Positions 15,468 through 34,932 of a DNA stretch of 64,000 nucleotides are shown here, piece by piece (positions within the stretch are counted from its first letter, which is position 1; each line of letters starts with the position of its first letter). The translations under genes were made by a program, and so were the position numbers. The notes beneath the pieces are model-generated. The model saw only the letters and a program-made list of their open reading frames with translations, was not told the origin of the DNA and did no database searches. This stretch comes from Cetobacterium sp. NK01 (lineage in GTDB: Bacteria; Fusobacteriota; Fusobacteriia; Fusobacteriales; Fusobacteriaceae): contig NZ_JANIBO010000001.1 in NCBI RefSeq assembly GCF_024506395.1, positions 1,798,001 to 1,862,000 on the forward strand. Reading direction: 5' to 3'.

Positions 15468-15599
15468 AACTTCCTTTCTAATATAAAAGTTGAATTCTTA
15501 ATAGATTTTATCATAAGAACGATATTTTTTATATAAATAATATTCAATTTTATTAAAAATCATAGTAGAATATAATAAGCATAAAAAATGGAGGAAAAA

Positions 15600-16640
15600 A
15601 TGATTTTAGTAAAATATGAAGATTTGTTGAAGGAGAAGAACTATACTTTAATAGATGTAAGAACTCCAAAAGAGTTTAAAGAGGAGCCTATTCCAGGGGC
15701 TATAAATATACCGTTACTTTTAGATGAAGAAAGAATAGATGTAGGAACTGCATATAAGCAAGTATCTCCAGAAAAGGCAAAGGAGTTAGGAGTAGAAGCT
15801 ATTGCCAAAAGACTGCCAGATATATTTAGAGAAGTTCAGAAACATGCAAAGGGAAGATTGGCATTTTATTGTGCTCGTGGAGGTATGAGAAGTGGTTCAA
15901 TGGCAGCTCTATTTGAAGCCTTAGGATATACAACTTGGAAGTTAGATGGAGGATATAGAGCATATAGACAGTATATACTAGATAATGTAAAAACTTATAA
16001 TAAAGATGTAAAATATATTGTACTACACGGAAAAACAGGAATTGGGAAAACAAAGATTTTACAAAAGTTAGAGAAAAAAGGTTATTCTGTTTTAGATTTA
16101 GAGAAAATAGCAAATCATAAAGGTTCTTTTTTTGGAGGAGTTTGCGAGAAAGAGGAGCAGAGTCAAAAGAAATTTGATTCACTAATTTTTGATTATTTCT
16201 ATAAAAATAAACCAGATTATGTTATAGCTGAAAGCGAAAGTAAAAGAATAGGAAATGTATATGTACCTGAAGATGTATTCCAATCTTTAAGAGCGGGAAT
16301 TCATTTATCTTTAGAGACTCCTATAAAACATAGAGTAGAAATAATAAGAGATGATTATGCAGGAGCTAGTATAGATGAGCTTCAGGCTTGTCTGGATAAA
16401 GTTTCAAGATATATAGGAAAAGATAAATATCAAGAGTATTCAAATATGTTAAAGGAAAATAAGATAGATGAATTATCAGAAGTACTGATGATAGAGTATT
16501 ACGATCCTCTTTATCAAAAAAGTATAGATAAGTACGTTTATGATTCAGAGATATTCTATGAGACTCTAGATGAGGGAGTTGAGAAAGTGGTGAGATATCT
16601 AAATGAGAAGGGTATTTTTGGAAAAGAGGTCACTGAATAA
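15600..16640 (+). CDS. mnmH: tRNA 2-selenouridine synthase
   Basis: MnmH (SelU/YbbB) replaces sulfur by selenium at the wobble 2-thiouridine of tRNAs for Lys, Glu and Gln, using selenophosphate from SelD. The N-terminal rhodanese domain (~1-125) carries the family's cysteine loop 'FYCARGGMRSGS'. The C-terminal P-loop domain begins with 'HGKTGIGKT' (~145-153). An ATG lies at 15588, but GGAGG sits inside that reading and six bases before the ATG at 15600, so I use 15600 (346 residues). Two start codons in frame make this the only uncertainty. It supports active selenium use, consistent with the sel genes 10-17 kb away. Confidence 0.93.
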   Translation: MILVKYEDLLKEKNYTLIDVRTPKEFKEEPIPGAINIPLLLDEERIDVGTAYKQVSPEKAKELGVEAIAKRLPDIFREVQKHAKGRLAFYCARGGMRSGSMAALFEALGYTTWKLDGGYRAYRQYILDNVKTYNKDVKYIVLHGKTGIGKTKILQKLEKKGYSVLDLEKIANHKGSFFGGVCEKEEQSQKKFDSLIFDYFYKNKPDYVIAESESKRIGNVYVPEDVFQSLRAGIHLSLETPIKHRVEIIRDDYAGASIDELQACLDKVSRYIGKDKYQEYSNMLKENKIDELSEVLMIEYYDPLYQKSIDKYVYDSEIFYETLDEGVEKVVRYLNEKGIFGKEVTE

Positions 16641-17178: not shown

Positions 17179-17745
17179 TTATTTTAAAGTAATTGTATTA
17201 TTTTCTAAAGATTCAATAACAGCAAGGGATTCAAGGTGGATTCCTTGCTCTTTTAATATAGTCCCTCCAGGTTGGAATCCTTTTTCAATAACGATTCCAA
17301 CTCCTTGTAAATTAGCACCAGCTTGTTCAATTATATTTTTTAGTCCAATAATAGCATTTCCCATAGCTAAAAAATCATCTACAACAAGAATATTATCTTC
17401 AGGTGATAAAAATTCTTTAGAAACAGTTATATTGTAATCAGTTTTTTTTGTAAATGAGTGTACATTTGCATTGTACGAGTCTCCCATTGTAGATGGTTTT
17501 TTCTTTTTTGCAAAAACCATAGGAACTTTAAATGCATATGCAGCAGCTATACCTATAGCAATACCAGAAGCTTCAATAGTAAGAATTTTATTTATATTTT
17601 TTCCTTCAAAACGTTTTTTTAACTCTTCACCAATTTCTATCATTAAAATAGGGTCAATTTGATGATTGATAAAGCTATCTACTTTTAAAATTGAACTATC
17701 AGTAACTGATCCGTATTTTTCAATATATTCTTTTAATAATTTCAT
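17179..17745 (-). CDS. xpt: Xanthine phosphoribosyltransferase
   Basis: Salvage enzyme converting xanthine and PRPP to XMP. The 188-residue protein shows the Xpt pattern: 'GSVTDSSILKVDSFINHQID' near the N-terminus, 'EASGIAIG' and the PRPP-binding loop 'ILVVDDFLAMGNAI'. It is the last gene of the riboswitch-led operon; its ATG overlaps the stop of the YqeC-MocA fusion gene by four bases. In this setting it competes with xanthine dehydrogenase for the same substrate, so the operon can send imported xanthine either to nucleotides or to oxidation. Confidence 0.95.
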   Translation of the reverse strand: MKLLKEYIEKYGSVTDSSILKVDSFINHQIDPILMIEIGEELKKRFEGKNINKILTIEASGIAIGIAAAYAFKVPMVFAKKKKPSTMGDSYNANVHSFTKKTDYNITVSKEFLSPEDNILVVDDFLAMGNAIIGLKNIIEQAGANLQGVGIVIEKGFQPGGTILKEQGIHLESLAVIESLENNTITLK

Positions 17746-19019
17746 ATTTGTTCCTCCAATATTTCTAATTTTTTTAAATCTTCTTGTGTATCAATATCAA
17801 AAAACTCCAAAGAGTTTTCAAAGTTACATTTAATAAAGCTTTCTTTTTTTAAAATTTCTCTTCCTCCGCTATCTCCCTTCAGATTTATAAGGTCTTCAAA
17901 ATACCTTTGTGGAAATAAAACAGGAGCTTTTTTATGACCATTAACAAAGGGAACTATAATCTCATCATATAATTGAAAATTATAAATAATTTTTATTATA
18001 GTTTGTTTTGATAAAAAAGGCATATCCCCTGGAATAAAAAGATATCCTTGCAAAGTAGAATTGAGAGTTCCTAAAACTACAGAATAACTTTGTCCTAAAT
18101 GAGCGCTATCATTATTTATATACTTAAATCCATATTTCTTACTTAGAGCTTCATAAAGATTATCTCTTCCAACTAATATCTTTTCTTTAAAACTTAAATG
18201 AGTAATATTAAATAAAGTTTCTTCTAAGATGCTTCTATTATTTTTTAGTTTAAAAGACAATTTATTCTCCAAAAATCTTTTTGAAAATCCAGAGGCTAAA
18301 ACTACAGGAGTGATACTTTTATAAAGAACAAATTTTTCTTCAAAAATAGATCCGAAATATATTTTTGAAGGAGAATTTAAATTGTTTACAATATTAAAAA
18401 ATTCTTCAAACATTTCAATATTTTCAATTTTATTAAAAAATATAATAGTTTCTCCTAAAGAATTTTTAAAGAAGTTATTTGAATTAATATACTCTATATA
18501 GTCGATTTTTTCAATAATTTTGTTAGAATTAAAGTATTGATTTTGAAAAAGTTCAAATCGATGAATGTTGTGTTCGTTTTTTTCTTTATTTAAAGCTGTA
18601 ATATCTACAATGGCAATAGTTTTAGTAGTGAGCGTGTAGATTCTAGGTTCATTTTCTCGCCAGCCTTTAAGAGATTTATTAGAGCTTCCGTCAGCTTCAA
18701 TTAATATATAATCAAAATAGTCTCTCAATCTATTTAAATCATAAAAACTAGTATCACAAATTTTATCATTTTCAACTTTTGAGCAAAAAATGTGTATAAA
18801 ATTATCCTGAGGAGATAAAGAGCCAATCTCCTCAGGATATATGAAAATAAAACTATTATTTTCTTTAATTTCAGGTTTGAAAATTTTAGTAGTGGTAGCA
18901 ATTAAAACAGTACCAGTTTTTTTTAGTTTATTAGCTAGATAAAACATTAAAGAAGTTTTACCACCAGCTCCTGTAATGGAGATTATATCTCCTTTTTTTA
19001 TATTAAAAAGTTCAGGCAT
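17742..19019 (-). CDS. YqeC-MocA/YgfJ fusion, selenium-dependent hydroxylase accessory protein
   Basis: Residues ~1-220 match YqeC, a P-loop protein ('ISITGAGGKTSLMFYLA') found with selenium-dependent molybdenum hydroxylases. Residues ~235-425 are a MobA-like nucleotidyltransferase of the MocA/YgfJ type ('TPVVLASGFSKRF', 'FIPGDMPFLSKQT'), which would add CMP to molybdopterin (forming molybdopterin cytosine dinucleotide). In other genomes these are usually separate genes; here they are one 425-residue polypeptide. The gene lies 24 bases after the molybdenum subunit of xanthine dehydrogenase. From the known families I infer that the enzyme's cofactor carries non-selenocysteine selenium; YqeB is not in the window. 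Confidence 0.85.
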   Translation of the reverse strand: MPELFNIKKGDIISITGAGGKTSLMFYLANKLKKTGTVLIATTTKIFKPEIKENNSFIFIYPEEIGSLSPQDNFIHIFCSKVENDKICDTSFYDLNRLRDYFDYILIEADGSSNKSLKGWRENEPRIYTLTTKTIAIVDITALNKEKNEHNIHRFELFQNQYFNSNKIIEKIDYIEYINSNNFFKNSLGETIIFFNKIENIEMFEEFFNIVNNLNSPSKIYFGSIFEEKFVLYKSITPVVLASGFSKRFLENKLSFKLKNNRSILEETLFNITHLSFKEKILVGRDNLYEALSKKYGFKYINNDSAHLGQSYSVVLGTLNSTLQGYLFIPGDMPFLSKQTIIKIIYNFQLYDEIIVPFVNGHKKAPVLFPQRYFEDLINLKGDSGGREILKKESFIKCNFENSLEFFDIDTQEDLKKLEILEEQI

Positions 19020-19043: not shown

Positions 19044-21296
19044 TTATATATTTAAAATACCCATTAGAACTTTTTCAGATGTTACAGGTAAATTTCTAAC
19101 TCTAACTTTAGTAGCATTGTAAACAGCATCAGCTATTGCAGGTGCTGGAGTGTTAACAACAACTTCACCTACAGATTTAGCACCAAAAGGTCCTGTTTTT
19201 TCATAAGAATTAGAAAATTCCACTTTTATATTTTTACAATCTAGTCTTGAAGGTATTTTATATTGCATTAAAGAATCAGATATAACTCTTCCTCTTCTAT
19301 CATACTTAATATCTTCAAAAAGAGCAAGTCCAATTCCTTGTACAGCTCCACCTTCAACTTGAACTTTCACTAGATTAGGATTTATATGAGTTCCACAATC
19401 AACAACAGATAAATAGTCAAGAATAGCTATTTCTCCAGTTAAAGTGTCCACCTCAACCTCAGCAAAACCTGCAATGAAAGGTGGAGGAGAAGTTTCACCA
19501 CCCCAAGTACCTGTAGTAGTAATTTGGTTCATGCCTTCAAATGATATAGAACGTTGAGCAAATTCCTCTAAAGTTATAATTTTATCAACTACTTTTAATG
19601 AAGTTCCAAGATATTCAATATCATTAATATCAATATTAAATAATTTAGAAGCACCTTTTAAAATTTCTTCTTTCATATTATTTGCAGCAATGATAACAGC
19701 GTTTCCTGTAACATAAGTACCACTAGAAGCATAAGCTCCTGGATCATATGGAGAAAGATCAGTATCTGCAGAATGAATAGTTATTTTATCCATAGGAACT
19801 TCTAAAACTTCAGCAGCTATTTGAGTTAATACAGTATCACATCCTTGTCCCATATCAGTAACTCCAACCATAAGATTAAAATCACCTCTATCACCAAGCT
19901 TTATTGTAGCAGCAGCAGTATCGATTCCAGCAATTCCAGATCCTTGCATTGTAACAGCCATTCCAGCAGCTCTAACTTTATTAGGGCTAATCTCTCTAGG
20001 CTTCGATCTTTCATCCCAGTTAAATTTTTCTTTTCCAATTTCTATACATTTTTTTATATCTCCGCTAGTTATATATTTCCCATCACCAGGCTCGACTAAG
20101 TTCTTCATTCTAACTTCAGTAGGATCAAGATTTAGTTGATGAGCTAATTCATTAATGATAGATTCAACAGCAAAAGTACCTTGAGTAGCACCATAACCTC
20201 TAAAAGCTCCAGCATTCATAGTATTAGAGTAAACGATGTTAGCGTTAAATCTCATAGGAACAGTATCATATAAAGGAAAAGTTTTATATGATACAAGAGA
20301 AGTAACTGTTGGAGCATGTTCTCCATAAGCTCCAGCATTTGAAAGAGCATTTATATCTATAGCTTTTATATTTCCCTCTAAATCAGCACCAATTTTAACA
20401 TCAAGTCTCATTCCATATCTTGTAGTTGTACAAGTATGAGTCTCTTTTCTGTTGTAAATTATTTTAGAAGGTTTACCAGTTTTTAAAGTTACAAAAGCAG
20501 AATATATTTCACAAACAGCTGTTTGTTTACCTCCAAAACCGCCACCTACTCTAGGTTTAATAACTCTTATTTTACTGCTAGGAATCTCTAATGCTCTAGC
20601 TAAATGTCTTCTAACATGAAATGGAATTTGAGTTGAGCTTACAGTAGTTAATCTTCCATTTACATCAAAATAACTATATGATCTATATGTTTCCATCATT
20701 GCATGCATCTGAGGTTGTGTGTAGTATGTTCTTTCAAGGATCACATCACTATTTTTAAATCCTTCATCAACACCAGGTTTTTCAGCATAGGCTTTAGAAG
20801 CTATATTTCTTTTTCTTTCATATCCAATTTCAAAATTAGTATGAACCTCTTCAGGATGGATAATAATGTGAGAATCAATAGCTTTTTCAAAATCTAAGAT
20901 AGGTTCTAAAATTTCATATTGTACTTTAATTAATTTCATCGCTTTTTCAGCACATCTTTCATCTTCAGCAGCAATAATAGCTACAGGATCGCCAACATAT
21001 CTAACATACTCATCAAGAATTCTTCTGTCATATGGTGAAGGTTCAGGAAAACTTTGTCCAGCAAGTGTAAATCTAGTTTTAGGTGTATCTTCATGAGTGT
21101 AGATAGCTTCAACACCAGGAACTTTTAAAGCTATAGAAGTGTCAATGGCTTTAATTTTAGCAAAAGGATGTGGTGATCTTAGAAGTTTTATAGTTAAAAC
21201 ATTATTATTTAAAATTAGATCTTCAGTGTAAGCTGGATTACCAGTTACAACGCCTATTCCATCTACTTTTCTCACAGATGTGTTAACAATTTTCAT
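19044..21296 (-). CDS. Xanthine dehydrogenase, molybdenum-binding subunit
   Basis: Large catalytic subunit (750 residues) of a three-subunit molybdenum hydroxylase. It shows the 'TGNPAYTEDL' N-terminal region, the molybdopterin motif 'VGGGFGGKQ' (~250), 'GAFRGYGATQGTFAVE', 'MGQGCDTVLTQIAAE' and the C-terminal 'GPFGAKSVGE' containing the presumed catalytic Glu. Substrate xanthine is inferred from the operon (purine permease, xpt, guanine riboswitch). The YqeC-MocA partner suggests the selenium-dependent class. No in-frame TGA interrupts it. The start overlaps the end of the Fe-S subunit gene by 14 bases. Confidence 0.9.
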   Translation of the reverse strand: MKIVNTSVRKVDGIGVVTGNPAYTEDLILNNNVLTIKLLRSPHPFAKIKAIDTSIALKVPGVEAIYTHEDTPKTRFTLAGQSFPEPSPYDRRILDEYVRYVGDPVAIIAAEDERCAEKAMKLIKVQYEILEPILDFEKAIDSHIIIHPEEVHTNFEIGYERKRNIASKAYAEKPGVDEGFKNSDVILERTYYTQPQMHAMMETYRSYSYFDVNGRLTTVSSTQIPFHVRRHLARALEIPSSKIRVIKPRVGGGFGGKQTAVCEIYSAFVTLKTGKPSKIIYNRKETHTCTTTRYGMRLDVKIGADLEGNIKAIDINALSNAGAYGEHAPTVTSLVSYKTFPLYDTVPMRFNANIVYSNTMNAGAFRGYGATQGTFAVESIINELAHQLNLDPTEVRMKNLVEPGDGKYITSGDIKKCIEIGKEKFNWDERSKPREISPNKVRAAGMAVTMQGSGIAGIDTAAATIKLGDRGDFNLMVGVTDMGQGCDTVLTQIAAEVLEVPMDKITIHSADTDLSPYDPGAYASSGTYVTGNAVIIAANNMKEEILKGASKLFNIDINDIEYLGTSLKVVDKIITLEEFAQRSISFEGMNQITTTGTWGGETSPPPFIAGFAEVEVDTLTGEIAILDYLSVVDCGTHINPNLVKVQVEGGAVQGIGLALFEDIKYDRRGRVISDSLMQYKIPSRLDCKNIKVEFSNSYEKTGPFGAKSVGEVVVNTPAPAIADAVYNATKVRVRNLPVTSEKVLMGILNI

Positions 21297-21747
21297 GTTT
21301 CATATCCTCCATAAAGTTTCTAATTGCTCTAAGCTGAGAAACGTATCCACTACATCTGCAAAGATTTCCATTTAAATAGTGCATAATTTCATCATCAGTA
21401 GGATTTTCAAGTTCTTTTATCATAGCAATTACTGTTAAAGTAAATCCTGGAGAACAAAAACCACATTGTTCAGCACCTTCACTAGTCATAAAAGATGCAA
21501 ATTTTTTAGCTTCAAGGGGAAAGTGCTCAATAGTAGAGATATGTTTTCCTTGAGCTCTAGCTGCAAGAGTACTGCATGAAAGGATAGGAGATCCATTTAA
21601 AAGGACAGTACAAAGGCCACAAGCTCCAGTATCACATCCTCTTTTAACACTAAGATATCCCTCTTTTCTTAAAACATCAAGTAGATAGTCATCATCTTTA
21701 ATAAGAATCTCTTTTTTTCTACCATTTATAGTAGTTGTTAATAACAT
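21283..21747 (-). CDS. Xanthine dehydrogenase, [2Fe-2S] subunit
   Basis: Small electron-transfer subunit, 154 residues. The plant-ferredoxin-type cluster is bound by 'CDTGACGLCTVLLNG' with a further Cys in 'SCSTLA'. The second cluster is bound by 'CGFCSPGF' and 'CRCSGY' in the C-terminal helical domain. Electrons pass from the molybdenum site through these clusters to FAD. It shares one base with the stop of the FAD subunit gene upstream and overlaps the molybdenum subunit gene, so all three subunits are translationally coupled. Confidence 0.94.
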   Translation of the reverse strand: MLLTTTINGRKKEILIKDDDYLLDVLRKEGYLSVKRGCDTGACGLCTVLLNGSPILSCSTLAARAQGKHISTIEHFPLEAKKFASFMTSEGAEQCGFCSPGFTLTVIAMIKELENPTDDEIMHYLNGNLCRCSGYVSQLRAIRNFMEDMKHENC

Positions 21748-22541
21748 TAATTTAAAACCTCCTGAATTCCTTTTCTAAGTAATGCTGCTAGGAGAAGCTC
21801 TCTATAAGATTTAGAGCCTCTCATGTTTGAATCTAAAGGAATTTCATCTCCAATATATTTCATAGCATTAACAATCTCTTTTTCAATATCTTCACTTTTA
21901 TTAAATAGATCCATAGTTTTTTTTGCTAATATAGCTTTTCCAGGTCTTGAACCCACAGCTATAGTTATATTATTATCAAAATTACAAATAGCTAAGTTTA
22001 TAATAGAATAATCAGTCTTACTTTTTCTAACACATTGAAAAGATGTTTGACAAACCTTTTTAGGAATTAGAATTTCAACTAATATATCTCTTCTAATATC
22101 TGTTTCATTTAAAAACTTTTCTAGATCTATAATACCGCCATTGAAAAGTTTAACTTTACTATCTAAAGCTAATAGAACTGGAACTAAATCAGAGAAACCA
22201 TATTTACTAAAAACTGTTGCTCCAACAGTAACATTTGTTCTAAATTGTACACCAATAATATCCCTTAAGGCTGTAGTAAAAATTTCTCCAAAATATCTAT
22301 TTAAAAGAGAGCTTGTCTCTAAGTTCCTAAAGTTAGTCATAGCACCAATAGAGATAAAATTATCTTCATCTGAAATATAATCCAGCTTTAAATTTGATAA
22401 GTCAATAGCCGTGTTCCAAGAGGTATTTCCCATTCTTAAATAGGAAGTTCCACCTAAAATAATATTTTTTTTATTTTTTAAAAGTTCTGAGTAAGCTTCT
22501 TCAAGAGAAGATGCTAAGAAAAATTTTGAAAAAGAAAACAA
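21747..22541 (-). CDS. Xanthine dehydrogenase, FAD-binding subunit
   Basis: The 264-residue protein fits the medium (FAD) subunit of molybdenum hydroxylases: 'ILGGTSYLRMG' in the first FAD-binding segment, 'ISIGAMTNFRNLE', then 'RTNVTVGATVFSKYGFSDLVP' (read as two pieces around residue 105) in the position of the family's 'GNLANASPAAD'. The latter is divergent from the classic sequence, as is common in the smaller anaerobic enzymes. The start has a clear GGAGG. It lies 27 bases after the permease gene in the same operon. Confidence 0.87.
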   Translation of the reverse strand: MFSFSKFFLASSLEEAYSELLKNKKNIILGGTSYLRMGNTSWNTAIDLSNLKLDYISDEDNFISIGAMTNFRNLETSSLLNRYFGEIFTTALRDIIGVQFRTNVTVGATVFSKYGFSDLVPVLLALDSKVKLFNGGIIDLEKFLNETDIRRDILVEILIPKKVCQTSFQCVRKSKTDYSIINLAICNFDNNITIAVGSRPGKAILAKKTMDLFNKSEDIEKEIVNAMKYIGDEIPLDSNMRGSKSYRELLLAALLRKGIQEVLN

Positions 22542-22568: not shown

Positions 22569-23918
22569 TTATGCAACTTTTTTGCTTAATTCAACTTCTT
22601 CAGTTGCTTTTTCAGTAACTGTTTCATCCTCTAGAGGTAAAATTATATTTAAAAATACAGCAATTGTACCAGAAACAACAATTCCAGATCCACCAAATAT
22701 AAGTTTTATACTTTCAGGAAAAACAGTTAAAGCTTCAGGAACATTTCCAAGACCGTACCCAAGTCCTAATGAAACTGCTAAAATAACAGAATTTCTACCT
22801 TTTAAAGGCTCTTTTGTAATTAAGTTTATACCGCTGATAGAGATCATAGCAAAAACCATAACTAAACTTCCGCCAATAACACTAGCAGGAATTATAGTGA
22901 AAAGAGCTCCGATCTTAGGAATAAATGCTCCTACAACTAAGAACATAGCACCAGTAGCTACAACAAATCTACTCATGATACCAGTCATAGCAATGATACC
23001 TGTATTTTGGCTAAAAGATGTTGTTGGTAAAACTGAGAATACAGCAGCTAAAGCACTACCTAATCCATCTGCAAGTATTCCACCAGATAGCTCTCTATCT
23101 GTAGTTTCTCTTCCAGCTCCACCCATAGTAACTCCAGACATATCTCCAACTGTTTCAACAGCAGAAACAATAAACATTAAAATCATAGCTAATATAGCAT
23201 CAAAATGAAAAGCAAATCCAAACATTAACGGTTTAGGTAAAGTTAAATAATCCGCTTGAATAAGAGGCTGTAAATTAACTTTTCCAAATATTAATGCTAC
23301 AATAAATCCTACAATAGTTCCAATAAAAATAGATCCAGTACTTAAAATACCTTTTGTGAATTGTTTAAAGAAAACAACAGTTATAAGAACAACAGTTCCA
23401 ATAAGTAAGTTTTCTAAAGAACCAAAATCAGGTGCACCTACTCCTCCTGCAAAGCTTTTAATTCCAACAGGTAACAGTGAAAGACCTATAGAAAGTACAA
23501 CAACACCAGTAACAATAGGTGGAAAAAACTTTCTAACTCTTTTAATAATAAGTCCTAGAAGTCCTTCGAAAATTCCTCCAATTAAAGCAGCTCCTAAAAC
23601 ACCTTCAAAGCCATATCTAGTTCCAATAGAAATTGCAACAGGAACAAAGGCAAAACTAGTTCCAACAACAATAGGTAATCTAGCTCCTATAGGACCAATT
23701 GTGTAAGCTTGGATTAGAGTATTTAATCCTGCAACAAACATAGAAGCTTGAATAAGAAGTGTTTTTTGTTCAGGTGATATTCCTAAAACACCAGCAACAA
23801 TGATAATAGGTGTAATATTACTAACAAACATAGCTAAAATGTGTTGTAAACCTAGAGGTAGGGCTGTTTTTAATTCAGGAACTCCGTCTAAGTGATAAGG
23901 TGATCTGTTCTTTTCCAT
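22569..23918 (-). CDS. NCS2 family purine (xanthine/uracil-type) permease
   Basis: A 449-residue transporter with about 14 hydrophobic segments and the NCS2 substrate motif 'SFSQNTGIIAMTG' (QNxG). The N-terminal 'LPLGLQHILAMFVSNITPII' is typical of xanthine/urate permeases, which import purines with protons or sodium. It is the first gene of the six-gene purine operon. A guanine riboswitch and terminator hairpin occupy the ~220 bases upstream, so its expression should fall when guanine or related purines are abundant. Confidence 0.92.
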   Translation of the reverse strand: MEKNRSPYHLDGVPELKTALPLGLQHILAMFVSNITPIIIVAGVLGISPEQKTLLIQASMFVAGLNTLIQAYTIGPIGARLPIVVGTSFAFVPVAISIGTRYGFEGVLGAALIGGIFEGLLGLIIKRVRKFFPPIVTGVVVLSIGLSLLPVGIKSFAGGVGAPDFGSLENLLIGTVVLITVVFFKQFTKGILSTGSIFIGTIVGFIVALIFGKVNLQPLIQADYLTLPKPLMFGFAFHFDAILAMILMFIVSAVETVGDMSGVTMGGAGRETTDRELSGGILADGLGSALAAVFSVLPTTSFSQNTGIIAMTGIMSRFVVATGAMFLVVGAFIPKIGALFTIIPASVIGGSLVMVFAMISISGINLITKEPLKGRNSVILAVSLGLGYGLGNVPEALTVFPESIKLIFGGSGIVVSGTIAVFLNIILPLEDETVTEKATEEVELSKKVA

Positions 23919-24042: not shown

Positions 24043-24073
24043 TAAAAAATCTAGATCAAAAAATCTATTTATT

Positions 24074-24142
24074 TCACCCATAGTGGCTAATTTAAGGTTA
24101 GCCGTAGAAACTTCCGACCGTATTACGGATATATATGAGTAA
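24074..24142 (-). promoter_or_regulatory. Guanine-class purine riboswitch aptamer
   Basis: Read on the minus strand the segment has all purine-aptamer parts. P1 is TTACTCATA / TATGGGTGA. P2 is TCCG / CGGA with loop TAATACGG. J2/3 is AGTTTCTAC. P3 is GGCTAA / TTAGCC with loop CCTTAAA. J3/1 is ACTATGGG. The specificity base (position 74 of the B. subtilis xpt aptamer) is C at 24083, which selects guanine/hypoxanthine/xanthine over adenine. It heads the purine permease-xanthine dehydrogenase-xpt operon. Confidence 0.95.
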
Positions 24143-24366
24143 CTATTTAACAAAGTTTATAAATAAAGACTTTGTTTAAAACTTTTTAACTTATGCACTT
24201 AAATTGCACTTTAAAATAATTGTTATCTCAATTACGTGAATTTAAGAACTTTTCGTTTAAAAAATAATATCATAAATTTCCCAACATTTCAACACTTTTT
24301 TAACATACAAAAAAATAAGTGCACCAAATAAATACAACGCATAACAAAATATTTTAAAATAAAAGT
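24143..24366. other. AT-rich intergenic stretch upstream of the riboswitch
   Basis: No coding region or further aptamer is evident. It contains a 7-bp inverted repeat (ACAAAGT / ACTTTGT) near 24150-24177, close to where the minus-strand promoter of the purine operon must lie. I could not fix a convincing -35/-10 pair for that promoter. Confidence 0.5.
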
Positions 24367-25486: not shown

Positions 25487-25580
25487 TGGCGGAAGCGTAT
25501 AGGAATCGAACCTACCAGCGATTTAACTCGCCAAGACAGTTTTGAAGACTGCTGAGTACACCAGTAACTCATCCGCTTCC
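25487..25580 (-). tRNA. selC: tRNA-Sec (anticodon TCA)
   Basis: On the minus strand a 94-base tRNA runs from GGAAGCG to CGCTTCC-G-CCA, with CCA encoded. The anticodon loop CTTCAAA contains TCA, decoding UGA, on stem GCAGT / ACTGT. The D stem is TGAGT / ACTCA. A long variable arm (GGCGA / TCGCT) and T arm with loop TTCGATT complete the selenocysteine-tRNA shape. The eighth acceptor pair is G opposite A, unlike the 8-bp E. coli helix. It sits 28 bases after the DUF3343 gene and may be cotranscribed with it and yedF. Confidence 0.96.
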
Positions 25581-25608: not shown

Positions 25609-25884
25609 TTAAAAATTAAAAGCAGAAAAGTTCTTTTTAAAACCATTTTTTTCACAAAGATAGAAATTGTATATATTTTTATCAATATTGTTATCAATTA
25701 AAAGTTTTAATATTTCATTAGCATCCTCAATTTTTGCTTTTAGAGAAAGTCCACAACTAGCTTTTAATTCTCCTGGAAGTGGAATAATTCTAACATCAAT
25801 ATTATTGTCAATTAAAAGTTTCTCTACTTTCATAACTAAATGAGTTGAATCGATTGTTATAACTAAAAATTTTTCTGAATTCAT
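25609..25884 (-). CDS. DUF3343 protein, putative Se/S carrier-like
   Basis: A 91-residue protein with a ferredoxin-like alternating pattern and a single conserved-looking cysteine in 'ELKASCGLSLKAK'. DUF3343 proteins are annotated as putative Se/S carrier-like and recur beside yedF and sel genes. Its ATG overlaps the yedF stop by one base (TAATG), so the two are translationally coupled. It lies just upstream of selC. I infer delivery or protection of reduced selenium; no enzymatic motif is visible. The C-terminus has extra Lys/Phe-rich residues. Confidence 0.75.
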   Translation of the reverse strand: MNSEKFLVITIDSTHLVMKVEKLLIDNNIDVRIIPLPGELKASCGLSLKAKIEDANEILKLLIDNNIDKNIYNFYLCEKNGFKKNFSAFNF

Positions 25885-26474
25885 TATGGTCTAATCACCT
25901 TGCTAGCTTTCATCTGCTTATCTATAATATTGTACATATTAGTAATAGTTCCAACAGATACATTATTTTCTAAATGGTAAAAGTTAAGACAAGCTCCACA
26001 AGATAAAATTTCAACTCCTCTTTCCTCTAAAATCTTTAAATCTTTTATAGTTGTCTCATTAGAAGCAGTTAAAAAAACTCCTTTGTTGTAGAAAAGAATG
26101 GCTTTTGGTAGAGTTTCCATCTCTGTAAGAGTATAGATAAATCCTTTCATTAAAGTCTCTCCAAGGGCAGCATCTCCATCTCCCATTTTATCAGAAGCAA
26201 TAACTATAATAGTATTATTTTCTTGATTAGAAGTACTAATTTCTGGTAAAGTTTTAGATGTAGTTTTATATATTTCAATATAAAATACTTCATTCTCTTC
26301 TTTTGTATTAAAAGAAAATCCCATCTCTTTAGCAAATTTTTCGATATTTTCTTTAGAAATCTTGTTATCTATAGATACTTCAACAACTCCATCTGTGATC
26401 TCTTTTAAAGCATTTTTTGTCATAATAACTGGAATAGGACAAGTTTGTCCAATAGCATTAACCTTTATCACCAT
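25884..26474 (-). CDS. yedF: Selenium metabolism protein YedF
   Basis: Residues 1-~70 form a TusA-like domain with the 'GQTCPIPVIMTK' Cys-Pro motif. Residues ~85-195 form a DsrE-like domain ('IIVIASDKMGDGDAALGE') with a CGAC site ('VEILSCGACLNFY'). This two-domain form of 196 residues is the YedF group associated with selenium utilisation, thought to hand selenium to SelD or to the selenium-dependent hydroxylase pathway. It is divergent from the permease gene upstream and coupled to DUF3343 and probably selC downstream. Confidence 0.9.
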   Translation of the reverse strand: MVIKVNAIGQTCPIPVIMTKNALKEITDGVVEVSIDNKISKENIEKFAKEMGFSFNTKEENEVFYIEIYKTTSKTLPEISTSNQENNTIIVIASDKMGDGDAALGETLMKGFIYTLTEMETLPKAILFYNKGVFLTASNETTIKDLKILEERGVEILSCGACLNFYHLENNVSVGTITNMYNIIDKQMKASKVIRP

Positions 26475-28061: not shown

Positions 28062-28070
28062 GGTAAATAA

Positions 28071-28105
28071 AAAATGGAAGAGCTTAAATTCTTCCATTTT
28101 TATTT
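28071..28105. terminator. Bidirectional terminator
   Basis: Stem AAAATGGAAG / CTTCCATTTT with T-rich sequence on both outer sides, between the permease and the SRPBCC gene. Confidence 0.8.
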
Positions 28106-28108
28106 TAT

Positions 28109-28576
28109 TTATTTTGTTTTGTTAAATTCAGTTTCAGCAACAACTTTTAATCTAGTTAATTGATCCTCTAAAACTTTTTTATTGAAAACATTAAATAGTT
28201 TATGTAATGAAGTTCCTTTTAATGTCCACGCTGTTATTATTAAATGAGTCTTGTTTGTATTAACTTCTTCAAAGTCATACTCAATTTTGAAATCAACCCA
28301 TTTATCTCCAATTTCAATTTGATATAATTTACCTTCTTCATAAGCTAAAATCTTTCCACAATATTCATCTTTAAAGCCATACATTTTAATATTTTCACAG
28401 AAAGTAGAACCAACAACTTCTGGCGTATCTGTATGTTTTTCACCTTCTAAACCTGTAATCCAAAGACCGTGTTTGCTATAATCAGATATAAATTTGAATA
28501 CAAAATCTTTAGGTGCTTCAATATCAACGCCCTGAACAAAAAATGGTATTTTTTCGTTTAATTCTTTTAGTTCCAT
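28109..28576 (-). CDS. SRPBCC family protein
   Basis: The 155-residue protein fits the START/SRPBCC fold: an N-terminal strand-helix ('DIEAPKDFVFKFISDYSKHGLW'), alternating strands and a long C-terminal helix. Family members bind hydrophobic ligands or act as cyclases/dehydratases; no specific function can be read here. I use the ATG at 28576, which has GGGAG six to seven bases before it, rather than an upstream in-frame codon. It lies 66 bases downstream of selB and may be on the same transcript. Confidence 0.65.
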   Translation of the reverse strand: MELKELNEKIPFFVQGVDIEAPKDFVFKFISDYSKHGLWITGLEGEKHTDTPEVVGSTFCENIKMYGFKDEYCGKILAYEEGKLYQIEIGDKWVDFKIEYDFEEVNTNKTHLIITAWTLKGTSLHKLFNVFNKKVLEDQLTRLKVVAETEFNKTK

Positions 28577-28642
28577 ACAAATCACTCCCATTTAATAGAA
28601 TATAATATATTATTATATTGTTTTATGGAATTTCCTTTAAGA

Positions 28643-30484
28643 TTAAATATTATTTTTTACTCTGTAGTTATCAATTTTTTTAGTAACTTTTTTTTCATCA
28701 AAATTTTCAAGATATATTAGAGCCATTTTTCTATTAGATTTTAAAATATCTCTGAATTCTGCTAGAGTAATTTTAGAATTTTTTTCAAAAAATAGTTGTA
28801 ATCTGCTTAATGCTTCTTGATAAAAACCTTTTAATACATAGTAATCATCTAAATTTAAAACTAATCCCTCACTTAAGAGATATTGAAAAACATTTTTAAA
28901 ATTTCTGTTAGACTTAAAGTGTTCATTTAAAATTTCAAAACTTAAGCCGTTAAATTCATGTTTTTTTAAAAGAACTAAAATTTCATCTTTAATTTTTTTC
29001 TCATCTTTAGAAAGTTTTATTTTAAAGTTTTTAAGAGAAACAAAGTTATTTTGTTCTTGAAAATCATCTTGAAATTCAATTGTAAGATTTTGTCCTTTAA
29101 AGAAAAGGTTGTTAACTGTTGCTAAAGGAACTCCTTTTTTCAAAGGATTTTTATTGTGAAAATCTTCTAAATATATTTTAATATCTAATTTTAATTTTTC
29201 CAAGATGGTTTTATGAATGATTGCATTGATCGATTTAAAGGTGAAGATATTCTCATCAAATGAGCTCTGATTTAAAGTTAAATTAAACTCTTTATTTAGA
29301 TCATTTATATAAACAAAATCTTTTTTAGTTGAAAGATACTCAACAAGATTGAGGTCTTTATTCAAAAGATAGTTTAATTTTTGTAAATATATATAGTTGT
29401 TTTTTTTAGTAGGAACACCAAAAGGTGTTAAAATTCTTACTCCACCAATTAAAGAAGAGGTGCTAAGAGTTCTTAAAATTCCAATATCATCGAAATCTAC
29501 TGGTATATCCTTATCCATAATCAATTGAAAGAAAATAGGATCTGTTTCTATTTCATGTAAATATTTAATTTTTCCAAAATACTCACCAGTACCAATATTT
29601 AAACGAATTTTAGTATTGTTTTTAGGAAGTTCCCCTCCTGATAATCGATTGAATAAAACATCTATAATTTTACTATTCATAATAGTTTGACTATTAGTTA
29701 AAAGATTTCCTCTTTCAATCTCTTTAGCTGTAGTTCCTGTTATATTTAAAGCGCATCTTTGGTGAGAAGAGATTTCTTCTAAATCTTTACCATGATTTTG
29801 AATACCTTTGATTTTAATACTTATTTTTTGAGGATAAAGTGTTAAGGTATCTCCTTTTTTGATATTTCCTATTGTAGTACCACTAACAATAGTTCCAATA
29901 CCTTTTGGTGAGTATATTTTATCTATATCTAAACGAAAAAAGTTCTCTTCTTTATTTGAGTCTAATATTTTTAAGTTATTAATCTCTTTTAAAATTATAT
30001 TATAAAGAGTTTTGTAAGTTGATGAATCTTTGCTAGTAACTTCTACAATAGGAAAAGACTTAAAAAAACTATCTTGAAAAGACTCTTCAATTTCAATTTT
30101 TAATTCTTGAATTCTTTCAGAGGTAACTAAATCAGTTTTTGATAAGACAATAATTCCATTTTTAACCCCAAGTAGTTTAAGAATCTCTTTATGCTCAATG
30201 GTTTGAGGCATAATCCCATCATCACAGGCAATTAAAAATAGAACGAAATCAATTCCTTTTGCTCCAGCAACCATATTTTTTATAAATTTTTCATGTCCCG
30301 GAACATCAATAATACTGATAATATCTCCAGAGGGAGTATTTAAAGGGGCAAAACCAAGATCAATGGTCATACCCCTTTCTTTTTCCTCTTTCATAGTATC
30401 GGTATTTATATCTGTTAACATTTTAACTAAAGTTGTTTTTCCGTGATCAATATGACCAGCAGTACCAATTACTATATTTTTCAT
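28643..30484 (-). CDS. selB: Selenocysteine-specific elongation factor SelB
   Basis: SelB delivers selenocysteinyl-tRNA to UGA codons by binding a SECIS hairpin in the mRNA. The GTPase domain begins 'GTAGHIDHGKTT' (residues 5-16), with 'DVPGHEKFIKNM' and 'LSKTDL'. EF-Tu-like domains II-III follow, and then C-terminal winged helices (~400-613) that read the hairpin. I use the ATG at 30484 (613 residues), one base after the selA stop; an upstream GTG lies within selA. Together with selA, selC and selD it completes the selenocysteine pathway. A target SECIS is present in selD. Confidence 0.96.
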   Translation of the reverse strand: MKNIVIGTAGHIDHGKTTLVKMLTDINTDTMKEEKERGMTIDLGFAPLNTPSGDIISIIDVPGHEKFIKNMVAGAKGIDFVLFLIACDDGIMPQTIEHKEILKLLGVKNGIIVLSKTDLVTSERIQELKIEIEESFQDSFFKSFPIVEVTSKDSSTYKTLYNIILKEINNLKILDSNKEENFFRLDIDKIYSPKGIGTIVSGTTIGNIKKGDTLTLYPQKISIKIKGIQNHGKDLEEISSHQRCALNITGTTAKEIERGNLLTNSQTIMNSKIIDVLFNRLSGGELPKNNTKIRLNIGTGEYFGKIKYLHEIETDPIFFQLIMDKDIPVDFDDIGILRTLSTSSLIGGVRILTPFGVPTKKNNYIYLQKLNYLLNKDLNLVEYLSTKKDFVYINDLNKEFNLTLNQSSFDENIFTFKSINAIIHKTILEKLKLDIKIYLEDFHNKNPLKKGVPLATVNNLFFKGQNLTIEFQDDFQEQNNFVSLKNFKIKLSKDEKKIKDEILVLLKKHEFNGLSFEILNEHFKSNRNFKNVFQYLLSEGLVLNLDDYYVLKGFYQEALSRLQLFFEKNSKITLAEFRDILKSNRKMALIYLENFDEKKVTKKIDNYRVKNNI

Positions 30485-30485
30485 T

Positions 30486-31871
30486 TTACACACTCTCTAA
30501 AAATCTTTTGAAGTTTTTTACAATTATAGAATATTCATCATCATGAATAGTTTTTAAATCTATAAAAAACTGATTGTTTTGAACTCTTCCAACAACAGGG
30601 ATATCCTCTTTTAAAAAGGCAGTTTCTATGCTTTTTCCATCTAAGGATGTAATTACAACTCCATAACTATCAATAGTTGCATCTGGCATTGAACCTCCAC
30701 CAATAATAGCTTTAGTTTCAATTACTTCACTATCTATATCAATCTCTTTTAAAAGATTTTTTAAAATCTCAGCTCTTTTAAAAACTTCAGAGATTGGTTC
30801 TAAAATTCTATTTAAAGTTGGATTTTTTTCTACAGCTACTTTTTCATCAATATATTGTTTAAAAGTAAATTCTAAAGCACTTATTGTCATTTTACAAACT
30901 CTAAAGGCTCTTAAAAATTGATTCTTTTTTAATCTTGAGATTAATTCCTTCTTTCCAATTATAATTCCACATTGGGGACCACCTAGAAGTTTATCTCCGC
31001 TGAAAGTTATTAGATCTATTCCAGAATTTAAAGATTCAAAAATTGTAGGTTCTTTTTTCAAACCATATTTTGAAAAATCAACAAGAACTCCGCTACCTAA
31101 ATCCTCCATAGATATTATTCCATTTTCTCTTGCTAGTTCAGCAATCTCTTTATTAGAAACAGATTTTGTAAAACCTGATATATGATAGTTTGAAGTATGA
31201 ACTTTTAAAAGCATTGAGGTATTTTCAGTGATAGCTTTTTCGTAATCTTTTAGATGCGTTCTGTTAGTAGTTCCAACTTCAACAAGCTTAGCGCTAGATA
31301 GTTCCATAATGTCAGGAATTCTAAATGAACCTCCAACTTCAACGAGTTCTCCTCTAGATATAACCACCTCTGTATTTTGGCTAAATTCGTTTAAACAAAG
31401 CATAACAGCAGCAGCATTGTTATTAACAACTAGTGCTCCTTCAGCTCCAGTAACTTTAGCAATTAAATCCTCAACATGTGAGTATCTACTACCTCTTTCT
31501 CCTGTTTTTAAATCAAACTCAAGATTACTATAACCACATAGAGAGTTTTGAAGATGTTCAATAAGATCTTTAGAAAAAAGAGCTCTTCCTAAATTTGTAT
31601 GTAAAATAGTACCAGTACCATTAATAACTCTTTTGAAATTATATTCTAAATTTCTAGTTAGAGACTTAGTTATCTCTTTTTCAATATCTTCTATTGTATA
31701 AGTAGTAATACTTCCTTCAAGGATTCCTTTTCTAAAAAGGTTAATTCCTTCGTTAACGGCGTCATAAACCTCTTTGTAAGGTTTGTCTTTAAAAAACTCT
31801 TTCTCCTTTAAAAGATCGATAATTTTATCTACTTTAGGAAGGTTTCTTAGAAGAGATTGTCTATCATTCAT
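30486..31871 (-). CDS. selA: L-seryl-tRNA(Sec) selenium transferase
   Basis: PLP enzyme converting Ser-tRNA(Sec) to Sec-tRNA(Sec) with selenophosphate. At 461 residues it is full length. Signatures include 'RVINGTGTILHTNLGRALFS', 'GSRYSHVEDL', 'MEDLGSGVLVD' and the PLP-lysine site 'FSGDKLLGGPQCG' (Lys ~293). The N-terminal 'LLRNLPKVDKII' helix, which contacts tRNA-Sec, is present. The start is ten bases after the selD stop, and selB follows one base after its own stop, so the order is selD-selA-selB. Confidence 0.97.
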   Translation of the reverse strand: MNDRQSLLRNLPKVDKIIDLLKEKEFFKDKPYKEVYDAVNEGINLFRKGILEGSITTYTIEDIEKEITKSLTRNLEYNFKRVINGTGTILHTNLGRALFSKDLIEHLQNSLCGYSNLEFDLKTGERGSRYSHVEDLIAKVTGAEGALVVNNNAAAVMLCLNEFSQNTEVVISRGELVEVGGSFRIPDIMELSSAKLVEVGTTNRTHLKDYEKAITENTSMLLKVHTSNYHISGFTKSVSNKEIAELARENGIISMEDLGSGVLVDFSKYGLKKEPTIFESLNSGIDLITFSGDKLLGGPQCGIIIGKKELISRLKKNQFLRAFRVCKMTISALEFTFKQYIDEKVAVEKNPTLNRILEPISEVFKRAEILKNLLKEIDIDSEVIETKAIIGGGSMPDATIDSYGVVITSLDGKSIETAFLKEDIPVVGRVQNNQFFIDLKTIHDDEYSIIVKNFKRFLESV

Positions 31872-31881
31872 AATATTCCCC

Positions 31882-32907
31882 TTATCTAACTACAATATAT
31901 TTTCCGTTGTATTTATCTACTGTTCCAATTAAAGATGATTTAATTTTAAGAGTATTAAGCTTTTCCATAATTTCAGATGCATATTTAGAAGGAACTGAGA
32001 ATAGTAAACCTCCAGATGTTTGTGGATCTAGCATAATCTCTTGTAACCAGAAAGGAACAGCTGAGATATCAACTTTATCATTTAAATAGTTTCTGTTTTT
32101 TTGTCCCATAGAGTTTATATAAAACTCTTTAGCGAATTCCTTAGCAATATCTAAATAAGGAATTAATTCTTGTTCTAAGGTAAATGTTTTCTCAGAAGCC
32201 ACTGCCATTTCGTAAGCATGTCCTAAAAATCCAAAACCTGTAATATCTGTACAAGCTGTAACTGGATAATTTTTAATAATTTCAGCAGAGTATTTGTTTA
32301 AAGTTGTCATTACTTCGATCCACTCTGTTTTTACCTCTTCAGGAAGTGTTTCAACTTTAGAAGCTGTAGATATAATACCTGTTCCTAGTGGTTTTGTTAT
32401 AATTAAAACATCTCCATCTTCAGAACCGTAATTTTTTAAGACTTTATCTGGATGAACAAGACCAGTAACTGAAAGTCCATATTTAACTTCAGGATCATGA
32501 ATAGAGTGCCCTCCACTTAGAACAGCTCCAGATTCTGCGATTTTTTCAGCTCCACCTCTTAAAATCTCACCTAGAATCTCAATATTTTCTTTTTCAGGAA
32601 AACAAACTATATTCATAGCAGTTTTTGGTTCTCCACCCATTGCATAAACATCACTTAAAGAGTTTGCTGCAGCTATTTGTCCAAATACATATGGATCATC
32701 AATCATAGGTGTAAAAAAATCTAAAGTTTGAATTAAAGCTATATCATCTGTTAATTTGTATATAGCAGCATCATCTGATTTTTCGAAACCAACGATTAAA
32801 TTTTTATCCTCCACACTTGGAAGATTTTTTAATAAATTTGAAAGGACCTCCGGTCCTATTTTGCTTGCTCAACCACCAATCGAGCATCTATCTAATAAAA
32901 GTTTCAT
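31882..32907 (-). CDS. selD: Selenide, water dikinase SelD, a selenoprotein (TGA = Sec at codon 13)
   Basis: Makes selenophosphate from selenide and ATP. An ordinary reading starts at 32814 and misses the active site. Reading through the in-frame TGA at 32869-32871 gives a 341-residue protein that starts at an ATG with GAGGAGG six bases upstream. Its N-terminus is M-K-L-L-L-D-R-C-S-I-G-G-Sec-A-S-K-I-G-P, the family's redox motif with selenocysteine in the catalytic Cys/Sec position, followed by the essential Lys. A SECIS-like hairpin follows. 'SDDAAIYKL', 'QTLDFFTPM' and 'DITGFGFLGHA' complete the AIR-synthase-like fold. SelD thus needs its own product, a known autogenous arrangement in some bacteria. 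Confidence 0.96.
32844..32871 (-). promoter_or_regulatory. UGA codon and bacterial SECIS-like hairpin in selD
   Basis: On the minus strand the TGA is followed after 12 bases by GGACC-GGA-GGTCC: a perfect 5-bp stem, extendable by A-T, with a GGA loop. The loop lies 17 bases after the TGA, inside the spacing known for bacterial SECIS elements, and presents the guanines SelB recognises. Confidence 0.9.
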
Positions 32908-32952
32908 TGCGTACCTCCTCATAAAAAAATGAACCTATAAATTATACCACAA

Positions 32953-34932
32953 TTATATATTTAATACCATACCACCTTCAAGATTATCAACAGTAGATAC
33001 TGTGATGCTACTTTTATTTAAAATGTCTAAAAGTGTTATTAAAATTAAATTTCCAGCAATAATTACATCAGCTCTATTAGGCTCTAATCCAATAATTTTT
33101 TTACGATCCTCTAATGTTTTACTTAAGAATAGAAAAAGGTTTTCTTCTAAATCCATTTTAGTTAAAATAAATTCATTAATCTCTTTTTCTACAAATTTTG
33201 GTAACTTTTTAATAATAGAAACATTTGTAGTAACTGTGCCAGCAACACCAATTATTTTAAAGTTGCTATTTTCAAATTTGCTTAACTCGTTAAAAAATCC
33301 TTTTAAATAGTTACGAGCAGACAAAAGTGTCTCTTCGTTATAGTTTTCTTCAGCAAAAAACATCTCAGTAAGCTTTACAACACCTATAGGAAAACTTTTA
33401 ACGTAATCAATACCATTGTAATCACCAATAGTGACTTCACTACTTCCACCACCAACATCAATAGTGGCTATTTTTTCTTTATAGATATTGCTGTTACCAT
33501 TAAAACTAAGTTTAGCTTCAATCTCTCCTGGGATAACAAGAGTATTTATATTAAATTCATTTTTGATTCCTTGAACAAATAAACTTCCGTTACTAGCCTC
33601 TCTAGTAGCTGCTGTAGCAAAAGCAATAAGTTCTGTAACTCCCATAGAATCAGCTTTTTCTTTAAATCTTTTAATAATATGATAAGTTTTTTCTATTGAT
33701 TCTTTAGAAAGAACTCCTGTTTGATTAAGATTTTTTCCAAGCCTAGAAACATCTAAGTCTTTATATATTGGAGTTACAATTTCAATTTTATTATTAGATT
33801 TTTCTATTTCAGCTATAAAAATTCTACAAGAATTAGTTCCTATATCGATAACACCCTTTAAAATTCTATTTTTAAATGAGTGGTTAGCTTGACATATAAG
33901 TTCTTTAGTAATAGGCATATTTTCGAGAATACCATTTTTATCAACTATAAATTTTATTTTATCGTTAGAGTTCTTTTTATCTTTTTTCATAACATTGATC
34001 AAAGTCTCACTCTCAATATATATAGGAGTACAATCAATTTTGTAAAGAGAAAAAATCTCTTTTATAGATTTAACATAATCTTCTGTTATAAATCCTAAAA
34101 GTTTAGATATTTCCATTTCAAAGATAATTCCTTTAGCTACTCCTTCACCGTGAGACATGTACTGATAATCAAATAGAGTTTCAAGAGCATGACCGTATGT
34201 GTGACCTAAATTTAAAAATGCTCTATCTCCTTTTTCAAATTCATCTTTCTCAACAAACTCTTTCTTTATTTTACAAGACTCGTAGATCATCTCAATTAAA
34301 ACTTCAGATTTTAATTTTAAAATATCTCTGTGGTTTTCTATTAAGAAATTGAAGTAAGATTTATCTTTGTTTATAATACTGTGTTTTATAACTTCACCCA
34401 TTCCAGATTTAAATTGATAGTCTGGTAATGTTTTTAAAAAATCAATATCTATAATAACACCGATAGGTTGTTTAAAAGATCCAATTAAATTTTTTCCTAG
34501 AGGGTGATTAATAGCTACTTTTCCTCCGATACTAGCATCAACTTGAGCTAATAACGATGTGGGAACTTGTAAAAAATCTAATCCTCTCATAAAAGTAGAA
34601 GCAATAAATCCTCCAAGATCGCAAACTACTCCGCCTCCAACACATATAATTAGAGAGTTTCTAGAGAAGTTATGTTCTATTAAAAAAGAAAATATCTTCA
34701 TAGATGTATCTATATTTTTGTAGATTTCACCATCTTCGATCTCAAATTTATAAGTTTTCTTTTTAGGCAAATTACTAGAAAGTTTATGACTGTATAAATT
34801 GCTAATAGTCTTATTTGTAAGTAGCAATATTTTATCGTAATTTTCAGTAAATTCATTAAGCTTAGTTATCGTATTTTGCCCAATAAGAATGTCGTATGAA
34901 TTTATAGAAGTCTTCATAACTAGATTTTTCAT
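32953..34932 (-). CDS. AroB-Ppx/GppA fusion: 3-dehydroquinate synthase with exopolyphosphatase-like domain
   Basis: Residues ~1-345 are 3-dehydroquinate synthase, the second shikimate-pathway enzyme: 'CVGGGVVCDLGGFIASTFMR', 'PTSLLAQVDASIGGKVAIN', 'GEVIKH' and 'NLGHTYGHALE' keep NAD- and zinc-binding residues. Residues ~362-659 are a Ppx/GppA phosphatase of the ASKHA fold: 'GVIDIGTNSCRIFIAEI' (phosphate 1), 'ATAATREA' and 'ATIDVGGGSSEVTIG' (phosphate 2). The second half would hydrolyse polyphosphate or pppGpp. The join is in one open frame without a stop. It heads the transcript that continues into selD, selA and selB (45 bases to selD). The start has GGAG at normal spacing. Confidence 0.92.
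   Translation of the reverse strand: MKNLVMKTSINSYDILIGQNTITKLNEFTENYDKILLLTNKTISNLYSHKLSSNLPKKKTYKFEIEDGEIYKNIDTSMKIFSFLIEHNFSRNSLIICVGGGVVCDLGGFIASTFMRGLDFLQVPTSLLAQVDASIGGKVAINHPLGKNLIGSFKQPIGVIIDIDFLKTLPDYQFKSGMGEVIKHSIINKDKSYFNFLIENHRDILKLKSEVLIEMIYESCKIKKEFVEKDEFEKGDRAFLNLGHTYGHALETLFDYQYMSHGEGVAKGIIFEMEISKLLGFITEDYVKSIKEIFSLYKIDCTPIYIESETLINVMKKDKKNSNDKIKFIVDKNGILENMPITKELICQANHSFKNRILKGVIDIGTNSCRIFIAEIEKSNNKIEIVTPIYKDLDVSRLGKNLNQTGVLSKESIEKTYHIIKRFKEKADSMGVTELIAFATAATREASNGSLFVQGIKNEFNINTLVIPGEIEAKLSFNGNSNIYKEKIATIDVGGGSSEVTIGDYNGIDYVKSFPIGVVKLTEMFFAEENYNEETLLSARNYLKGFFNELSKFENSNFKIIGVAGTVTTNVSIIKKLPKFVEKEINEFILTKMDLEENLFLFLSKTLEDRKKIIGLEPNRADVIIAGNLILITLLDILNKSSITVSTVDNLEGGMVLNI

Follow-up and report, generated by a model that had tools for sequence, protein, structure and literature searches.

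It is very probable that the selD gene of Cetobacterium sp. NK01, found in a stretch of 64,000 nucleotides (hereafter the window), is a normal Cetobacterium selD whose catalytic residue would be encoded as selenocysteine (Sec), the decoding of its UGA codon being presumably guided by SelB and a hairpin, and which would belong to a selD-selA-selB unit of its own. The Sec-SelD of the window is a real and well-conserved feature of a kind already known from many bacteria. The initial sequence-only reading, which stated that Sec-containing SelD is known in some bacteria, was correct, and such proteins are widespread: Sec occurs in 19% of prokaryotic SelD (PMC4561486), and among bacterial selenoprotein families SelD ranks second by breadth of occurrence, having been recorded in 383 organisms (PMC5029168). 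Our literature search found no published account of Cetobacterium selenoproteins or of Sec-SelD in this lineage.

Table 1. Features of the window related to selD and to selenium metabolism
Feature	Position	Strand	Basis
mnmH (ybbB), tRNA 2-selenouridine synthase, second selenophosphate consumer	15588..16640	+	protein match
YqeC-MocA-type Se/Mo cofactor protein by the xanthine dehydrogenase set, likely third consumer	17742..19019	-	domain match
tRNA-Sec (selC), anticodon TCA	25487..25580	-	RF01852, 68.6 bits
yedF, selenium metabolism protein	25884..26474	-	TIGR03527, 227 bits
Terminator-like hairpin (both strands), downstream of the unit	28070..28101	-	hairpin scan
SRPBCC/polyketide-cyclase-like gene, end of the unit	28109..28591	-	domain match, locus comparison
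selB, Sec-specific elongation factor	28643..30493	-	TIGR00475, 285 bits
selA, Ser-tRNA(Sec) selenium transferase	30486..31871	-	TIGR00474, 578 bits
selD, 341 codons + stop, in-frame TGA as predicted Sec13	31882..32907	-	TIGR00476, structure alignment, relatives
bSECIS-like hairpin AGGACC-GGA-GGUCCU	32843..32857	-	folding, 35-sequence comparison
TGA codon for predicted catalytic Sec13, motif GGU-ASK-IGP	32869..32871	-	alignment, conservation
Shine-Dalgarno GAGGAGG of selD	32914..32920	-	sequence inspection
Extended -10 element TGGTATAAT, conserved 5' of selD, candidate promoter	32941..32949	-	motif comparison
AroB-Ppx fusion gene 5' of selD, probably transcribed separately	32953..34932	-	ORF and domain matches

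An in-frame UGA at the catalytic position of SelD

The genome holds a single copy of selD, and the TGA at codon 13 is the sole interruption of its 341-codon frame, which opens with an ATG at 32907 located 6 nt downstream of the Shine-Dalgarno motif. A standard ORF call starts instead at GTG 32814 and delivers a protein of 310 amino acids that omits both Sec and the K16 motif. These observations bear out what had been read from the letters, namely that a TGA stands at the redox Cys/Sec position of SelD, that a ribosome-binding site and an ATG lie 12 codons upstream of it, and that an ordinary gene call loses the active site. The read-through protein matches the equivalog family TIGR00476 with 383.8 bits (cut-off 125), which predicts a role as selenophosphate synthetase, and its residue 13 aligns with the active-site-motif Cys of the solved SelD structures from Aquifex (2yye/2zod) and E. 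coli (3u0o). The succession of a Cys or Sec and xxK, typical of the catalytic position, is found as U13-A-S-K16. Were the UGA a true stop, SelD would be made from the internal GTG, as the mechanical ORF call has it, and the first 12 codons would be a leader or a relic; this is most improbable, since the protein would be deprived of its catalytic residue and of K16, no Shine-Dalgarno is seen 5' of the GTG, and the residues around and after the UGA are conserved at the protein level in 48 genomes.

The conservation of codon 13 was followed across the order Fusobacteriales in 96 genomes, of which 56 possess a true SelD. The codon is TGA in 48/56 and TGT or TGC in the other 8/56, no other codon being encountered, and within Cetobacterium itself TGA is found in 11/11 SelD genes. 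The in-frame UGA is thus conserved and aligned with Cys in homologues, as expected of a selenoprotein gene. The sequence-only reading had itself considered that the TGA might be a sequencing error; such an error, or a pseudogene, deserves practically no credence, because the same TGA is found throughout the genus and in 48 separate genomes of the order while the rest of the frame is intact, and no point in favour of this explanation was found. Weak SelD-like matches with a TGA in G004, G008, and G010 were set aside: they are different members of the AIRS family, and in each the TGA precedes the true start.

The presence of the Sec machinery follows that of Sec-SelD. SelA, SelB, tRNA-Sec, and SelD are all present in the genome of the window; SelA scores over the cut-off in 48/48 Sec-SelD genomes and is missing at this cut-off in 44/48 other genomes (Fisher p 8e-23, kinship ignored), and tRNA-Sec is found over the cut-off in 46/48, the two genomes without it being incomplete drafts (G023, 71%; G048, 85%). 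It is worth adding that two selA matches in otherwise Sec-SelD genomes (G017:C8:413482-414815 and G026:C1:615186-616513) contain in-frame stops and come with a second piece, a pattern resembling a frameshift, which could be assembly error or decay. Altogether, the selD UGA is almost certainly read as selenocysteine, and we infer that Sec is inserted at codon 13.

The eight genomes with Cys-SelD are instructive in this respect. All of them encode MnmH (8/8); five lack SelA over the cut-off, and three (G040-G042) possess SelA, tRNA-Sec, and a UGA-containing FdhA. Judged by these gene contents, Cys therefore appears to be enough for SelD even in bacteria that make Sec. The claim that the enzyme needs selenocysteine was too strong, because Cys-SelD is the form that these three sister genomes employ alongside a full Sec machinery. 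In a tree of 80 SelD proteins, whose branches are long and whose root is arbitrary so that the direction of Sec/Cys change is not firm, the Sec/Cys label changes five times, three of these changes being forced by well-supported branches.

A conserved hairpin after the UGA

A bacterial SECIS element (bSECIS) is a stem-loop located directly downstream of the UGA with a G at the start of its loop. The window hairpin lies just past the UGA; the first base of its stem is the 12th past the TGA, its loop occupies bases 18-20 and opens with a G at base 18, and the minimum free energy is -7.9 kcal/mol. The position and the GGA loop are those announced by the sequence-only reading, and the stem counts 6 bp instead of the 5 it gave. 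Taken alone, the window fold is not exceptional against shuffles (z -1.40) and is borderline against synonymous recoding (p=0.053, not significant at 5%). What supports the hairpin is its conservation and covariation in 35 distinct Sec-SelD sequences rather than this fold alone: the stem is paired in 91.4% of cells versus 36-70% in registers slid by 1-3 columns, and one pair (columns 18-26) has changed on both sides in 8/35 sequences from A-U to G-C, through a Val-to-Ala change combined with a synonymous GGA-to-GGG change (Fisher p 1.2e-4, kinship ignored). Against synonymous recoding, Sec genes folded on average slightly more stably than expected, with a mean z of -1.34 over 56 unique related sequences, most of them not significant singly (17/56 at p<=0.05). 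The non-TGA rows showed this less, with a mean z of -0.56 (1/18 at p<=0.05); two of them, L015 and L032, have mis-parsed start regions, which leaves 16 sequences for the comparison with Cys genes. A SECIS role of the hairpin is putative but well supported by its position and conservation, and the hairpin would be the site bound by SelB. Like other bSECIS elements it is a short stem-loop directly after the UGA and inside the coding sequence, and it differs from them by its short 6-bp stem and its loop of 3 nt. Searching the sel region with Rfam at a relaxed threshold returned nothing relevant.

The selD-selA-selB unit and its probable promoter

The three genes are tightly packed, selA starting 10 nt past the selD stop and selB overlapping the end of selA, and this spacing is kept within the genus. 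Their order is conserved in Fusobacteriaceae and in Peptostreptococcaceae, and yedF follows closely in most Fusobacteriaceae; judged by this gene order, selD-selA-selB(-yedF) is a conserved unit. The small SRPBCC-like gene past selB is present in several Cetobacterium and missing in others.

The sequence-only reading saw its special point in an aroB-ppx-selD-selA-selB transcript, which our comparison leaves without support, the linkage of aroB-ppx being patchy and a conserved extended -10 element preceding selD. What had been taken for separate aroB and ppx genes is a single fused gene of 659 aa, and all relatives checked keep its two parts in one reading frame. This fusion of AroB with Ppx/GppA is seen in all Cetobacterium and in several Fusobacterium-type loci checked. 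The fused gene adjoins selD in most Cetobacterium, lies near it in some Fusobacterium, and is absent there in others. The element TGGTATAAT sits past the aroB-ppx stop and before selD. Its pattern, TGNTATWAT, was found in the 100-nt region preceding selD in 24/44 distinct Fusobacteriaceae loci, each time at a distance of 39-55 nt from the selD start, where dinucleotide shuffles would give 1.07 loci, and is missing 5' of selD in the F. mortiferum/varium-type group. One could argue that transcription of selD depends entirely on a promoter lying 5' of aroB-ppx, as both genes lie on the same strand with a gap of 45 nt and no terminator-like site was found between them; we consider this unlikely in view of the abundance and narrow range of positions of the -10 pattern and of the many relatives without aroB-ppx next to selD, including the Cetobacterium genome L032 in which about 1.5 kb separates the two. 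Some transcriptional read-through from aroB-ppx into selD is possible. Based on the conserved extended -10 past the aroB-ppx stop and on the patchy linkage of aroB-ppx, selD is most likely the first gene of a selD-selA-selB unit with its own promoter, the extended -10 being the predicted site of promoter use, and this unit likely comprises selD-selA-selB and the small SRPBCC-like gene, ending at the terminator-like hairpin.

Such an arrangement brings up the question of regulation. Readthrough of the UGA might act as a selenium sensor that sets the level of SelD and, via translational coupling or polarity, those of SelA and SelB. This addition to the Sec-SelD reading is possible but less likely than not. 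In its favour, the UGA lies only 12 codons from the start and the spacing of selD, selA, and selB is close and kept in the genus. Against it, many bacterial operons have genes packed as closely, selenium dependence is a property of any Sec-SelD and does not make it a regulator, and the sister genomes that possess the full Sec machinery manage with Cys-SelD. Nor is the feedback reading new, since selD autoregulation was put forward in 1996 by Guimaraes et al., as cited in PMC8659212.

Selenium utilization in the window and in related genomes

The window gathers mnmH, the YqeC-MocA fusion, selA, selB, selC, and selD, i.e., genes for all three known selenium uses, within the same 64 kb. As Sec genes, mnmH, and a YqeC-MocA-type protein are found together in the window, SelD probably supplies three selenium uses. 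A xanthine dehydrogenase set (19044-22541, minus strand) stands beside the YqeC-MocA fusion, and a purine riboswitch (24061-24158, minus strand) immediately precedes a gene for a xanthine permease (22569-23918). A scan of the window for TGA codons in long frames gave one other candidate Sec gene, at 21302, which proved to be a frame artefact before the xanthine dehydrogenase start ATG at 21296, and no other large candidate. The genome of the window encodes one FdhA with and one without UGA, and neither GrdA nor GrdB/PrdB gave a match.

The picture differs in 28/48 Sec-SelD genomes, a group to which the window's genome does not belong, in which UGA-FdhA, GrdA, and GrdB/PrdB were all not found and 26 of which encode MnmH. 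In 11 of these 28 genomes and in G000, searches for SelW or HesB-type selenoproteins likewise gave no match, and the AhpC/TSA and MsrA matches contained no UGA. Judging from these searches, SelD may be the chief consumer of what it produces in the 28 genomes. This pattern agrees with the suggestion of Zhang et al. 2006 (PMC1794560) that, in the absence of FdhA, the Sec trait can be kept up by SelD. Because only a handful of the more than 110 known selenoprotein families (PMC13188914) were covered, "SelD only" should be taken as a lead. Going one step further, SelD might be the only or nearly only selenoprotein in many Cetobacterium and Fusobacterium genomes, forming a closed loop whose output is selenouridine (in the window perhaps together with a Se-cofactor) and whose gate is UGA readthrough; we regard this as doubtful, and it fails for the window's own genome, where a UGA-containing FdhA is also present.

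Discussion

The following scheme may be proposed for the window selD. Ribosomes would start at the ATG at 32907, and SelB, guided by the hairpin just downstream, would deliver Sec-tRNA(Sec) to the UGA at codon 13. Translation past the UGA would yield a selenophosphate synthetase of 341 residues, in which Sec13 and Lys16 would take part in selenophosphate formation. The selenophosphate would then go to SelA for Sec and to MnmH for selenouridine; a molybdenum hydroxylase that contains Se is a probable further recipient.

Several known systems resemble this one. With the Sec-SelD of Haemophilus influenzae and Clostridioides difficile, the window protein shares the UxxK catalytic motif, a hairpin just after the UGA, and a single selD gene. 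The selD-selA-selB operon is the one known from C. difficile (PMC5677094), as also seen in the Peptostreptococcaceae loci that we compared, and the SelD proteins of this family show about 50% identity with that of the window. In contrast with known bacterial Sec-SelD loci, the window has a different upstream gene and carries yedF and selC close by. The Cys-SelD of E. coli and Aquifex belong to the same protein family and share the motif and the aligned residue, whereas they have Cys in place of Sec and no UGA.

For the annotation of genomes in this lineage, the active site of SelD is lost if the UGA is treated as a stop. Finally, if SelD proves to be the sole selenoprotein in some Fusobacteria, these bacteria would provide a natural system for asking why a cell maintains four genes for the insertion of a single selenium atom and whether the loop is adjusted to the selenium available.
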